DNA of 64,000 nucleotides from Fibrobacter succinogenes. GTDB taxonomy: Bacteria; Fibrobacterota; Fibrobacteria; Fibrobacterales; Fibrobacteraceae. Location of the stretch: positions 124,001 to 188,000 of the forward strand of contig CACVQR010000002.1 in assembly GCA_902756345.1 (NCBI GenBank). Direction: 5' to 3'. A program made the position numbers and the translations under genes. Below the pieces are notes generated by a model that saw nothing but the letters and a program-made list of their open reading frames with translations, ran no database searches and was not told the origin of the DNA. This document shows, one piece after another, positions 45,886 to 51,433 of the stretch (position 1 is its first letter; every line of letters begins with the position of its first letter).

Positions 45886-45977
45886 CGTTTTTAAGGCAGT
45901 TTGGGCCTTTTTTGTGACCGATTTCACATAGGTTCTCAAGGGTTATCCTTCTATTTGAAATATTATCGTGATAAAAT

Positions 45978-45985
45978 TATATTTA
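45978..45985 (+). promoter_or_regulatory. -10-like TATATTTA of the FISUMP lipoprotein pair
   Basis: TATATTTA lies 38 bases upstream of the preferred ATG at 46024; a GAGG ribosome site lies between them. Supports the shorter start. Confidence 0.5.
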
Positions 45986-46023
45986 CATTGAATAGTCCCA
46001 TCAATCTCTCAAACGAGGTCCGA

Positions 46024-48237
46024 ATGAAAATGAAGTTCTCTCTACAGGCAATGGTTGCCTCAAGCGCACTCTTGATCGCTTGCGGCGGAGATTCCACTTC
46101 TACCAAGCCCGAAGCAAAAGATACTCTAGCGGACGGATCTAGCGTAGAGACGATTTACGACTTGGGCAAATGTACATCTGATCGTATTGGCGACGTCATT
46201 TTTGTCGAAGAGGAAGGCGTCAATTACGAATGCACCAAGAAAGATTGGAAGGATATCGGAGAACCGGAATCCTCTGCATCGAAAGAGGATAAATCTTCCT
46301 CTTCAAAGGTAAAGTCTTCAGAATCTAAAGATGATGATTCCTCTTCTTCAAAAGATAAATCATCCGATTCCAAGGATGATGAATCTTCGTCTTCTAAGGA
46401 CAAGTCGTCTGATTCCAAGGACAGTTCTTCTGAATCTAAAAAGGATGACTCTAGTTCTTCAACGGCGCCAAGCTCGAGCAGTGTTCCCGAATCGAGTTCC
46501 AGCGTACAGGGTGCAAATGAGACTGTAGAAAATGTTGCTATATCAAAGAAAATCTTTACGGGTGTTGCCGAAAAAGGTCCCTTTGCAAGCGGAACAGCGA
46601 TTAAACTTTCTGAATTAGACGATGTTCTGGACCCGACTGGAACCACTTTTGAATGGGAAGTTACAAGTGAATTGGGCGAATACACATCGGCTAAGGTGAC
46701 GCTCAAGAGCCAATATGCATTGATGCAAGCAAATGGCTATTATTACAATGAAAACACCTATAAAAAGAGCGCAGGCCAGTTGACCCTTAAGTCTCTTGTT
46801 GATTTGAGTGATCGTAATTCTGCAAATATCAACGTTTTGGGACACCTGGCTCACAAGCGAATCATTAACCTGTTTGCAGAAAGTGGCAAATACAAAAATG
46901 TGCCTGCGGCAAAGGCTGCTGCCGAAAAAGAAGTTCTCGCTGCTTTCGGTTGGTCTGGCAACAACCATGCTTTTGAAGACTTGAGCATCTTTGGAAGCTA
47001 CGAAGATGATGCGAAGCTTCTTGCTGCATCCATTCTTTTGCAGGGGGGCTTGAGCGACGCTGACCTTACCAGCCGATTGACGACTCTTGCAACCGATTTC
47101 GAAGATGACGGCCGTTGGAGTGATTCTGCGGCAAAGGTTGCCATGGCTGACTGGGCTATGAAAAATGATTCCAACCTTACTGTTATTCGTACAAAACTGA
47201 CTGCGATGAATAGCTCTGTTCCGAATTTCGAAAAATATATCAGCATGTTTGTTGGCGAAATTTATGGAATTGGAGTGTGCGATACAAAGCAAGACGGCAT
47301 GATGATTAAGATGACAAACGCTTACAGCGATAACTTGGGCAAAACTTATGTTTGCGATGGTGACCGTTGGCGTTTGCCCACGTCTATTGAAAATAGTTTC
47401 AAAACCGCTTGCACCAAGGGTAATAACAAGAAGACTTTCACCGATATGAATTCTAGCAGTTCTCCTATTACCTATGTATGCGATGGTGGTAATGGAAATT
47501 GGCGCAAGATGGGTGTTTACGATTTTAGTAAGAGCGCTTACTTGAACAGTGAAATGGAATATGGAGAAATCAAGGACAGTCGTGATGGAAAGACCTATAA
47601 GACGATAACCATTGGACTTCAGACTTGGATGGCAGAAAACTTGAACTATTACGATGAAGATAATGCAAACCTTGTTGAAAACGCTTGGTGCTACAAAAAT
47701 GTCAAGGACAATTGTGAGGTTGGTGGAAGACTTTATAGTTGGACTGCCGCTATGAATCTTGATTCGAAATACTTGAAGACTTCGGCTGCTGCACTTATTG
47801 AAAGTCCGCATAGAGGCCTTTGCCCTGAAAAGTGGCATGTGCCTGACACTGCGGAATGGAGACAGCTTAAGACTTACGTTGCGAAAATGGAAACGGCTTC
47901 TACTATGACAAATGATCATACTGGAAAGTTGAAATCTTCTAGAGGTTGGGTGGGCTACAGTACAATCAGCCAGTCTACCAATGAATATGGTTTCTCTGCC
48001 ATTCCGACAGGAGCTTATTATGGTATTCATGCTGACCCGACGGACAACTATAGCCGTTACCTTTTTGACGATGCGGGCTACTTTGCCAATTTCTGGAGCG
48101 CAAATGAGGCCTCCAAAAGCACTGGTGCTATTTACTGGTTCCTTGACTATCGATACAACTATATCAGCTATTATTATAGCAGCTATAACGAGAAGGATCG
48201 CGGATTCTCTCTGCGCTGTGTGAAGGATAAGGAATAA
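46024..48237 (+). CDS. FISUMP-domain lipoprotein with Ser/Lys/Asp linker
   Basis: 737 residues from ATG 46024; upstream codons of the open frame cover the promoter and are not used. Lipobox LIAC (Cys19). A two-Cys module lies at about 42-80 (IYDLGKCT ... YECTKKDW). A long Ser-Lys-Asp linker spans about 80-165 and a helical middle domain about 170-410. Two further two-Cys modules follow (near 417-445, TYVCDGDRW, and 460-500, TYVCDGGNGNW). The FISUMP domain covers about 515-737 ([26 protein letters not shown], split; CPEKWHVPDTAEWRQL). Surface protein of unknown function; the next gene is a smaller paralogue. Confidence 0.88.
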   Translation: MKMKFSLQAMVASSALLIACGGDSTSTKPEAKDTLADGSSVETIYDLGKCTSDRIGDVIFVEEEGVNYECTKKDWKDIGEPESSASKEDKSSSSKVKSSESKDDDSSSSKDKSSDSKDDESSSSKDKSSDSKDSSSESKKDDSSSSTAPSSSSVPESSSSVQGANETVENVAISKKIFTGVAEKGPFASGTAIKLSELDDVLDPTGTTFEWEVTSELGEYTSAKVTLKSQYALMQANGYYYNENTYKKSAGQLTLKSLVDLSDRNSANINVLGHLAHKRIINLFAESGKYKNVPAAKAAAEKEVLAAFGWSGNNHAFEDLSIFGSYEDDAKLLAASILLQGGLSDADLTSRLTTLATDFEDDGRWSDSAAKVAMADWAMKNDSNLTVIRTKLTAMNSSVPNFEKYISMFVGEIYGIGVCDTKQDGMMIKMTNAYSDNLGKTYVCDGDRWRLPTSIENSFKTACTKGNNKKTFTDMNSSSSPITYVCDGGNGNWRKMGVYDFSKSAYLNSEMEYGEIKDSRDGKTYKTITIGLQTWMAENLNYYDEDNANLVENAWCYKNVKDNCEVGGRLYSWTAAMNLDSKYLKTSAAALIESPHRGLCPEKWHVPDTAEWRQLKTYVAKMETASTMTNDHTGKLKSSRGWVGYSTISQSTNEYGFSAIPTGAYYGIHADPTDNYSRYLFDDAGYFANFWSANEASKSTGAIYWFLDYRYNYISYYYSSYNEKDRGFSLRCVKDKE

Positions 48238-48245
48238 ATTACCCG

Positions 48246-49295
48246 ATGCGTTTCCCTCTTGTCGCGTTTTGCCCGTTGGTACTATTACTCGCTTGTGGCG
48301 ATGAATCAAATACTATTGATTCAAGTGGCCTCTCAACTTCAGATACAAAAGAGGTTGAATCTATTTATGACTTGGGGGCTTGTACCAACAAGCGCAAAGG
48401 CGAAGTCGTATTCGTAACCGATGACGATAAGGAATACATTTGTTACTCGAACAAGTGGATTCCTTCTGATGAGATTGACAAATCGGATGAAATTTCATCG
48501 TCAAGCGAAGATGCAATCGTTGACGACGAAAAATCTTCTAGTAGCAAAAAAGAGGAATCCTCGTCTAGTGAGAACAGTATCTCTGAAAACGAAAAGTCCT
48601 CTTCGAGCGAAACCTTGTTAGAGGAATCATCTTCAAGTGGAATAGAGTCTTCCTCTAGCAAAGAGGAACCTGATGAATCTTCGAGCAGCTCGTCTATACA
48701 AGAGGAAAAATCGTCTTCTAGTGCAGAGAGTTTGTCGGAATTGACGGATTCTACATTCACGGATTCGCGCGATGGTCAGACATACCGAATTCTCAAGTTG
48801 GGAAAGCAAGTCTGGTTTGGCGAAAATTTGAATTATTCCGGTGAAGATGCGGTTGGCTATTGCCATGAGAACGATCCTGAAAAATGTGAAATATACGGCA
48901 AGCTATATCGTTGGAACGATGCGATGAAAGCGTGCCCCGAAGGTTGGCATTTGCCGGGTCTTTTGGAATGGATTGACTTGATTAATTATGTCGGCGGACA
49001 AGAAATGGCTGGTGTCAAGTTAAAGTCAAAGGCTTACTGGTATATTCAAGAAGAGTTTGCTCAGTATGCAGGTACCGATGATTACGGATTCTCAATTCTT
49101 CCGGGAAGCTTTATGTCTGAACAAGGTTCTTTCGGTTCCACGGCCAGGCTTGCAGCCCATTTATGGACTTCGACGGAAGAAACCGATACGAGATCGAATG
49201 ATGTGTTCCTGATGCATAGTATGGGAAAAGTGGTGCTGGAAGGATCTCCGAGGGATGTCGGGATGTCTGTTCGTTGCCTGAAGGACTCTGACTAG
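48246..49295 (+). CDS. FISUMP-domain lipoprotein, smaller paralogue
   Basis: 349 residues; lipobox LLAC (Cys17). The N-terminal two-Cys module (about 36-75: IYDLGACTNKRKGEVVFV, then YICYSNKW) is clearly related to that of the preceding protein. A Ser/Glu linker spans about 80-165, and the FISUMP domain about 170-349 (DSRDGQTYRILKLGKQVW; CPEGWHLPGLLEWIDL). It starts eight bases after the preceding stop, so the two form an operon. Role unknown; surface location inferred. Confidence 0.88.
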   Translation: MRFPLVAFCPLVLLLACGDESNTIDSSGLSTSDTKEVESIYDLGACTNKRKGEVVFVTDDDKEYICYSNKWIPSDEIDKSDEISSSSEDAIVDDEKSSSSKKEESSSSENSISENEKSSSSETLLEESSSSGIESSSSKEEPDESSSSSSIQEEKSSSSAESLSELTDSTFTDSRDGQTYRILKLGKQVWFGENLNYSGEDAVGYCHENDPEKCEIYGKLYRWNDAMKACPEGWHLPGLLEWIDLINYVGGQEMAGVKLKSKAYWYIQEEFAQYAGTDDYGFSILPGSFMSEQGSFGSTARLAAHLWTSTEETDTRSNDVFLMHSMGKVVLEGSPRDVGMSVRCLKDSD

Positions 49296-49383: not shown

Positions 49384-49941
49384 ATGCTGAAAAAATATTT
49401 TTTCAAAATTAGCTTTGCCTGCGCAGTGACCGCTTTCTTTGCGGCCTGCTCGACTCCGACCGTTTCCAGCGACGACGATGAAGACCTTTATAGAAGGTCT
49501 TCGGCATCGAAGAAAGGAAAATCATCTTCTAGCGAAGAAGCGACATCATCTTCTAGCGAAACGAAGCAGTCTGTATATGATGCCGTGGTGAAGTCTGGCG
49601 TGTATACCACCAAGGATTCCGTGGCCGCGTACTTGTGCAAGTTCGACAAGTTGCCGAGCAATTATATTACCAAGGACGAAGCGATTGCCCTTGTCGAAGA
49701 AGAAACGGGTAGAGAATTTACGAAGTGGAATTTTAATCCGTGGACCGCCTTTGACTTTATGGTGGGTGGTGACGTCTACAGCAACAGCGAAGGCCTTTTG
49801 CCCAAGGGCTCTTACCACGAAGCCGACGTGGATTACCATGACGACAGCCGCGGAACCAAACGCTTGGTCTATGCGTCGGATTGCGTGATTTACTATACCG
49901 CTGACCATTACAAGACATTCAGCAAGCTGGACATTCGGTAA
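49384..49941 (+). CDS. barnase-family ribonuclease lipoprotein
   Basis: 185 residues. Lipobox FFAAC (Cys22), Ser/Lys linker (about 28-62), then a barnase/binase-type domain (about 64-185). Collinear matches to barnase are KLPSNYITKDEA, GGDVYSNSEGLLP, HEADVDY, KRLVYASDCVIYYTADHYKTFSK. Catalytic counterparts are all present: K89 (barnase K27), E146 (E73), R156 (R83), R160 (R87), H175 (H102), with E-R-R-H spacing identical to barnase. Two extra Cys (C85, C167) could form a disulfide. Predicted: RNA cleavage on the cell surface. No barstar-like inhibitor gene lies nearby. The ATG appears leaderless; the iron alcohol dehydrogenase gene follows after four bases. Confidence 0.9.
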   Translation: MLKKYFFKISFACAVTAFFAACSTPTVSSDDDEDLYRRSSASKKGKSSSSEEATSSSSETKQSVYDAVVKSGVYTTKDSVAAYLCKFDKLPSNYITKDEAIALVEEETGREFTKWNFNPWTAFDFMVGGDVYSNSEGLLPKGSYHEADVDYHDDSRGTKRLVYASDCVIYYTADHYKTFSKLDIR

Positions 49942-49945
49942 TTAT

Positions 49946-51058
49946 ATGCGTTTCTTTGTTCCGACAGATATTTATGTTGAAAAGGACTGCGTGAAAAAAC
50001 ACGCGAATCAATTGCTTGTTGTCGGGACTCGCGCGCTCATTATGACGGGCCGCCATTCTGCAGTGGCGAATGGCTCCTTGAACGATGTTGAAAGCGTCTT
50101 GAATTCCGGCAATATCCCGTTCCAGGTTTTTGACGAAGTCGAAGAAAATCCGTCCACGGATACGGTGCGCAAGGCCGTACAGATGGCGCGGAATTTCAAG
50201 GCTGATTTTGTCATTGGTATTGGGGGAGGCTCCGCTATCGATGCTGCCAAGGCGGTGTCGTTGCTCCTGTTGAATCCTGCCGTCGATGCCGATGACCTTC
50301 ACAAAGCGTCAAGCAGCCCTCTGGATCATGCGCCTGTCGTGGCTGTCCCGACAACGTGTGGAACTGGTTCCGAGGCGACGCCTGTTTCGATCATCACGAA
50401 TCACGGGATTCAACTCAAGAAAAGCATTCCGCATGTGATTTTCCCGGCGCTTGCGCTTGTTGACGGAAAGTATCTTGCCTCGGCAAAGAAACAGTTGATT
50501 GTGAATACCGCTGTCGATGCGCTTTCTCACATGGTCGAAAGCATTCTTAATATCAAGTCGAATGCGTTCAACCGCATGTTCCCGGAATACGGCCTCAAGC
50601 TTTGGGGCGAATGCAAAAGCGCGTTGCTCTCCGATGCCGCTATCGATTCGGGCCTCTATGAAAAGCTCATGCTCACCTCGACTATTGCAGGTATGTCCAT
50701 TGCCCATACAAGTACTTCGGTGCCGCATGGCATGAGCTATGATCTCACACTCCATGCGGGTGTTCCTCACGGACCCGCGGTCGGCTACTTCCTTGCCGCT
50801 TACACTGAGATCTGTGCAAAATTTGTGCCCGAGGACGTTCAGAAAATACTTTCTATTTTAGGGCTTAAGAATATTGAGGAATTTGCGGCGATGCTTCGCA
50901 AACTAATCGGGACTTGTACCATCCCGAGAGCTCTGCGCGACCAGTTTGCCGCGGCCATGAAGAAGAACCGCTCTAAACTGGATCTCGTTCCCGGAGCAAT
51001 CACAGCTGCCGATATCGACTTTATATACGAAAAGTCCTTGGTCGTGGAATCGAACTAA
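49946..51058 (+). CDS. iron-containing alcohol dehydrogenase
   Basis: 370 residues. Nucleotide-binding GIGGGSAIDAAKAV (near 92-105), PTTCGTGSEATPVSII, and metal ligands in NTAVDALSHMVE, SVPHGMSYDLTLH and GVPHGPAVGYF. Reaction: NAD(P)H-dependent interconversion of an aldehyde and alcohol; the substrate cannot be read. Cytoplasmic. Probably cotranscribed with the upstream RNase gene, although no functional link is obvious. Confidence 0.93.
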   Translation: MRFFVPTDIYVEKDCVKKHANQLLVVGTRALIMTGRHSAVANGSLNDVESVLNSGNIPFQVFDEVEENPSTDTVRKAVQMARNFKADFVIGIGGGSAIDAAKAVSLLLLNPAVDADDLHKASSSPLDHAPVVAVPTTCGTGSEATPVSIITNHGIQLKKSIPHVIFPALALVDGKYLASAKKQLIVNTAVDALSHMVESILNIKSNAFNRMFPEYGLKLWGECKSALLSDAAIDSGLYEKLMLTSTIAGMSIAHTSTSVPHGMSYDLTLHAGVPHGPAVGYFLAAYTEICAKFVPEDVQKILSILGLKNIEEFAAMLRKLIGTCTIPRALRDQFAAAMKKNRSKLDLVPGAITAADIDFIYEKSLVVESN

Positions 51059-51085: not shown

Positions 51086-51433
51086 CTATTTCTCTAAAAA
51101 GTCAAGGGCCTCGCCGGCCAGTTCCACGCAGCGATTGCAGGGGATAATCTTGTTCGGGCGGATTTCGCTGCACTTGGTAAAATTCTGTGCCCCACGCCTG
51201 AAAAAATCCTCGATGGCATCGGCGTGATCGGGCTGCATCATTTTTGCCGCATAGAGCGCTCCGCAGGCCCCGTTAGGAGCCTTGCCGCCGCCAAAATCAC
51301 GGAACATCTGCGCTGTGGCCGTTGCATCAATCTCGGACTTGCCTGTGGCTCGGGCATAACCATATGCAACCGACATCGCGCAATTACCGCGTTTATCCGC
51401 ATGGAATTTTTTAGAAATTTCTGCAATCGACAT
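51086..51433 (-). CDS. C_GCAxxG_C_C family redox-type protein
   Basis: 115 residues. The family signature is complete: an N-terminal Cys (RGNCAMSVAYGYA), NGACGALYAA and C-terminal Cys residues in FTKCSEI and PCNRCVELA. Members are thought to be small redox-active or metal-linked proteins; the role is not established. ATG 51433 is preceded by AAAGGAA and a TATATT -10 about 25 bases further upstream. Convergent to the alcohol dehydrogenase gene. Confidence 0.88.
   Translation of the reverse strand: MSIAEISKKFHADKRGNCAMSVAYGYARATGKSEIDATATAQMFRDFGGGKAPNGACGALYAAKMMQPDHADAIEDFFRRGAQNFTKCSEIRPNKIIPCNRCVELAGEALDFLEK

Follow-up and report, generated by a model that had tools for sequence, protein, structure and literature searches.

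A window of 64,000 nucleotides (the whole stretch of DNA analysed) from Fibrobacter succinogenes encodes a barnase-family protein, predicted to be lipid-anchored, with its full catalytic set, and barstar is missing from its genome and, in effect, from the genus Fibrobacter as well. Barnase and barstar are the textbook toxin-inhibitor pair. The window protein is a real, well-conserved variant of the known enzyme. The interest lies not in the lipid anchor but in a barstar lost or lacking throughout the genus, combined with a pair of cysteines, C85 and C167, specific to the lineage. A sequence-only reading of the window had described a lipid-anchored barnase with a complete active site and no barstar; our results support that description and extend it to nearly the whole genus.

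The window encodes a predicted lipoprotein of the barnase family

The gene, the parts of its product and the gene that follows it are listed below.

49384..49941, + strand: barnase-type lipoprotein gene, 185 amino acids plus stop (open reading frame, domain search)
49384..49449, + strand: signal peptide with lipobox FAA-C (FFAA-C), Cys22 (sequence pattern)
49450..49569, + strand: acidic SSDDDED, then a Ser-rich linker with two SSSS blocks
49600..49929, + strand: barnase domain, residues 73-182 (PF00545, phmmer, AlphaFold2 model, Foldseek)
49636..49638, + strand: C85, barnase position 15, first Cys of the pair (alignment)
49672..49674, + strand: K97, barnase K27, the catalytic Lys, in YITK (phmmer alignment)
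49819..49821, + strand: E146, barnase E73, the general base (alignment)
49849..49851, + strand: R156, barnase R83 (alignment)
49861..49863, + strand: R160, barnase R87 (alignment)
49882..49884, + strand: C167, barnase W94 position, second Cys of the pair (alignment)
49906..49908, + strand: H175, barnase H102, the general acid (alignment)
49946..51058, + strand: iron-containing alcohol dehydrogenase (Fe-ADH), 4 bp downstream (PF00465, E 6e-45)

The open reading frame and domain searches placed the lipobox, the Ser-rich linker and the barnase domain within 49384-49941, where the sequence-only reading had put them. Only PF00545 exceeds the Pfam cut-off in the 185-residue protein (51.9 bits, E 1.2e-13; curated cut-off 24). 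With phmmer against the PDB the best matches were binase and barnase (E 6.9e-20). The AlphaFold2 model of residues 59-185 has a mean pLDDT of 92.6 and a pTM of 0.86, and Foldseek matched it to barnase with an E of 3.5e-11 and to barnase and binase with a probability of 1.0. By profile, catalytic set and fold, the protein belongs to the barnase family. From the lipobox in its signal peptide, judged by script with a PROSITE-type pattern, it is predicted to be a lipoprotein, and a lipobox is recognisable in nearly all lipoprotein-type Fibrobacter barnases. Acidic residues after Cys22 were considered as a signal for surface export and not taken up, since barnases made up most of the set compared.

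The spacing of E146, R156, R160 and H175 (10, 4 and 15) is identical to that of their barnase counterparts, and these four residues do not vary among the Fibrobacter domains that extend to the positions. The catalytic Lys had earlier been given as K89. The alignment rejects this, pairing K89 with barnase K19 and K97 with K27. Since the residue at the K27 position is a Lys too, the claim of a complete active site stands, including the four matches and their spacing, with only the Lys numbering in error. Barnase R59 is replaced by Ser (S135), while E60, the Glu of guanine recognition, is kept as E136. Loss of R59 was considered as a mark of barstar independence and rejected, as the barstar-paired barnases of the Lachnospiraceae mostly have Tyr there. 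About 30 of 85 domains (L034, L050, L059 and about 27 other Fibrobacter barnases) have 7 residues inserted into the guanine-binding loop; in these a His aligns at the E60 position, which suggests an altered base preference.

The gene that follows is an Fe-ADH, as had been read from the sequence. It was rejected as a functional partner, since just a few of the other Fibrobacter loci have the two genes side by side. Directly upstream are two adjacent Ser-rich lipoprotein-like genes with a Fib_succ_major domain (45901-48237 and 48246-49295). This domain and the nearest relatives assign the window to Fibrobacter. A small C_GCAxxG_C_C redox-type gene, under the Pfam cut-off, is found at 51086-51433 on the minus strand.

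Barstar is effectively absent from Fibrobacter

Barstar (PF01337) had no match in the window genome, which is 99.2% complete, and none adjoins the barnase gene. The earlier statement that no barstar is adjacent is thus correct, and holds genome-wide. When the genomes of 151 relatives were searched with PF01337, a single match was found, in G028, one of the 80 Fibrobacter genomes. This match is a domain of a 315-residue protein in an assembly with 8% contamination; it does not lie beside barnase, and its neighbours on the contig look foreign. The search was sensitive, as it recovered barstar in all 13 genomes of non-Fibrobacter relatives and in 60 of the 65 barnase-bearing Lachnospiraceae genomes searched. 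Because a divergent inhibitor could escape the Pfam profile, we also built a cognate-barstar model and searched the 80 Fibrobacter genomes with it. The model was made from nine barstars found in genomes of the relatives; for several of these the position next to barnase could be verified. Only eight weak, short partial matches were found. The four that were read are aroK-aroB fusion genes, matched by chance, and a divergent Fibrobacter barstar was rejected.

Barstar lies directly after barnase on the same strand in 59 of 67 Lachnospiraceae cases, with 11-314 bp (median about 34 bp) between the matched stretches. Among clostridial-type barnases, 28 of 43 are lipoproteins by an automated lipobox test; the others mostly have a hydrophobic N-terminal segment, and several show a lipobox by eye. 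Lipid anchoring is therefore ordinary, and a tethered barnase with a barstar is the rule in gut Clostridia. It had been implied that tethering explains the missing inhibitor. That explanation fails, because the tethered clostridial enzymes keep theirs, and tethering alone cannot account for the absence in Fibrobacter. In E. coli, a periplasmic signal reportedly does not free active barnase from the need for barstar (PMC8403359), which makes the absence from a Gram-negative genus notable.

The gene is conserved in shifting genomic contexts

In a profile search, PF00545 was present in 61 of the 80 Fibrobacter genomes and in four other genomes of the family, with one copy in the window genome. 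The window gene has a dN/dS of 0.07-0.17 against its two closest orthologues. For the barnase domain the range is 0.03-0.13 (ten orthologue pairs with computable dS), and the N-terminal part and linker evolve faster than the domain in several to most pairs. The barnase gene is under purifying selection. It is found in several different genomic contexts across Fibrobacter; of 59 lipoprotein-type loci, only 17 have the commonest neighbour family, which is hisC-like and encoded on the other strand. The enzyme is thus maintained, but it has no linked partner gene.

These data bear on two other explanations. An inhibitor unrelated to barstar could be encoded elsewhere in Fibrobacter genomes, since inhibitors may be unrelated in sequence and lie beyond family searches. 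No gene, however, travels with barnase from one context to another, and we consider such an inhibitor improbable. The other explanation is a toxin directed at adjacent cells, either contact-dependent, as the sequence-only reading raised, or displayed on the surface. Barnase domains do serve as polymorphic toxin tips with barstar immunity, in fibrobacteres as well (PMC3482391), but the 185-residue lipoprotein is short and has no trafficking domain, an immunity protein is neither adjacent nor elsewhere in the genome, and the domain is conserved and slowly evolving where a toxin tip would be variable in architecture. The PADLOC defence library gave no match for this role either. The toxin proposal does not hold up against these results, and we give it very little credence.

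A second architecture was observed in Fibrobacter, with an N-terminal cold-shock-like domain (PF00313 under the cut-off, E 0.0015), a basic stretch, one hydrophobic helix and a barnase with the same Cys pair. Its members are L001, L004-L006, L008-L012, L014-L016, L020, L022, L023, L025, L030, L113, L126-L128 and L131; L024, L114 and L120 are short forms without the cold-shock part. A literature search for a cold shock domain combined with barnase returned only a paper on another system. In one locus (L061:4968-5532) the barnase gene is broken across two reading frames by a frameshift or an assembly error. Another (L142, 2947-3594, minus strand) encodes a very divergent barnase lipoprotein with extra cysteines besides the conserved pair, on the longest branch of the tree.

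A cysteine pair is specific to the lineage

The first reading mentioned C85 and C167 in passing; they proved the most informative feature of the protein. Of 83 distinct Fibrobacter domains, 82 have both (83 of 84 as tabulated, one row duplicating the window protein), whereas all 43 relatives lack both; neither is ever found singly. The sole exception, L132, is from another genus of the Fibrobacteraceae. It has His and Gly at the two positions, like the clostridial proteins, and no barstar. As this lipoprotein barnase lacks both cysteines, the pair is not strictly required for life without barstar. A quick tree, with long branches and weak deep support, puts L132 between the Fibrobacter group and the clostridial one. 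This placement would fit barstar absence preceding the gain of the cysteines, though the long branches make it uncertain. The co-occurrence of the Cys pair with the lack of barstar may represent one evolutionary event rather than many.

Strand 4 of barnase begins at W94 and packs there on the last part of helix 1, close to H18, which makes a C85-C167 disulfide sterically plausible. The window genome encodes a DsbA-like CPYC lipoprotein; it had no match to DsbB or VKOR. One possibility, which we hold tentatively, is that the disulfide restricts folding and activity of the barnase to the outside of the cytoplasm and so replaced barstar. Loss of the inhibitor would then have been permitted, and the enzyme would have spread into two anchored architectures, the lipoprotein and the cold-shock-like domain with membrane helix and barnase.

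It may instead be an ordinary secreted RNase, protected by Sec export alone, in which the cysteines only stabilize an exported protein. Barstar would then either not have been gained in the first place or have disappeared with nothing to compensate for it. L132, with neither Cys pair nor barstar, is consistent with this, as are B. pumilus binase, which has no known inhibitor (PMC8837141), and the common use of disulfides to stabilize exported proteins. The requirement for barstar in E. coli despite a periplasmic signal argues the other way, as do the exported, anchored clostridial relatives that almost always retain it and a Cys pair that is near-invariant across two architectures and never broken singly. 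We regard this explanation as somewhat unlikely, on a par with the disulfide replacing barstar.

Proposed function

On balance we lean towards an extracytoplasmic, lipid-anchored RNase, probably for RNA scavenging, with the producer protected by export and possibly by a disulfide. A barnase-family, guanyl-type RNase would be exported, tethered to the membrane and active outside the cytoplasm. There it would break down RNA at the cell envelope, most likely for nucleotide, phosphate or nitrogen scavenging. Being exported unfolded, the enzyme would spare its producer, and a C85-C167 disulfide forming outside the reducing cytoplasm could confine the stable fold to that compartment, perhaps in place of the inhibitor. 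The scavenging role is suggested by analogy with the Bacillus enzymes, which are induced by phosphate starvation; binase and balifase are produced under this condition (PMC5021464). No transporter or Pho context for such a role was found. The digestive RNase of the sequence-only reading is thus plausible, with purifying selection, the extracytoplasmic signal, the lack of an immunity gene and the starvation-induced Bacillus relatives as indirect support.

A clade in which most species keep an active-site-intact enzyme without its inhibitor offers a clean test case for how a lethal RNase is tolerated. Fibrobacter may also be a source of a barnase whose expression needs no barstar. Finally, the enzyme suggests that this bacterium, a dominant degrader of cellulose in the guts of herbivores, handles RNA at its envelope.

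Comparison with known barnases

Fibrobacter barnases are set apart by three features: no barstar, no conserved neighbour gene and a near-invariant C85/C167 pair. Barnase from B. amyloliquefaciens and binase from B. pumilus (PF00545) are like the window protein in fold, in the Lys/Glu/Arg/Arg/His set and in having an export signal, with about 41% identity in the structural alignment. The window protein differs from them in its predicted lipid anchor, in the Cys residues at barnase positions 15 and 94, in the change of R59 to Ser and in 3 net extra residues between K27 and E73. Unlike B. amyloliquefaciens, the window genome encodes no barstar. Secreted barnase homologues with no accompanying barstar are reported from B. 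pumilus and B. altitudinis (PMC8837141). On B. licheniformis the literature is divided, as PMC5021464 describes a barstar orthologue in the same operon.

The Tox-Barnase/Imm-Barstar polymorphic toxin cassettes (PMC3482391) have a barnase-type catalytic domain in common with the window protein, which is by contrast a small conserved lipoprotein with neither a trafficking region nor an immunity gene. The anchored barnases of gut Clostridia (for example L064, L066, L070, L071 and, from the Lachnospiraceae, L162-L191) are likewise exported, mostly as lipoproteins, with the same catalytic set. They differ from the Fibrobacter enzymes in the Cys pair (0 of 43) and in a barstar that is nearly always next door.
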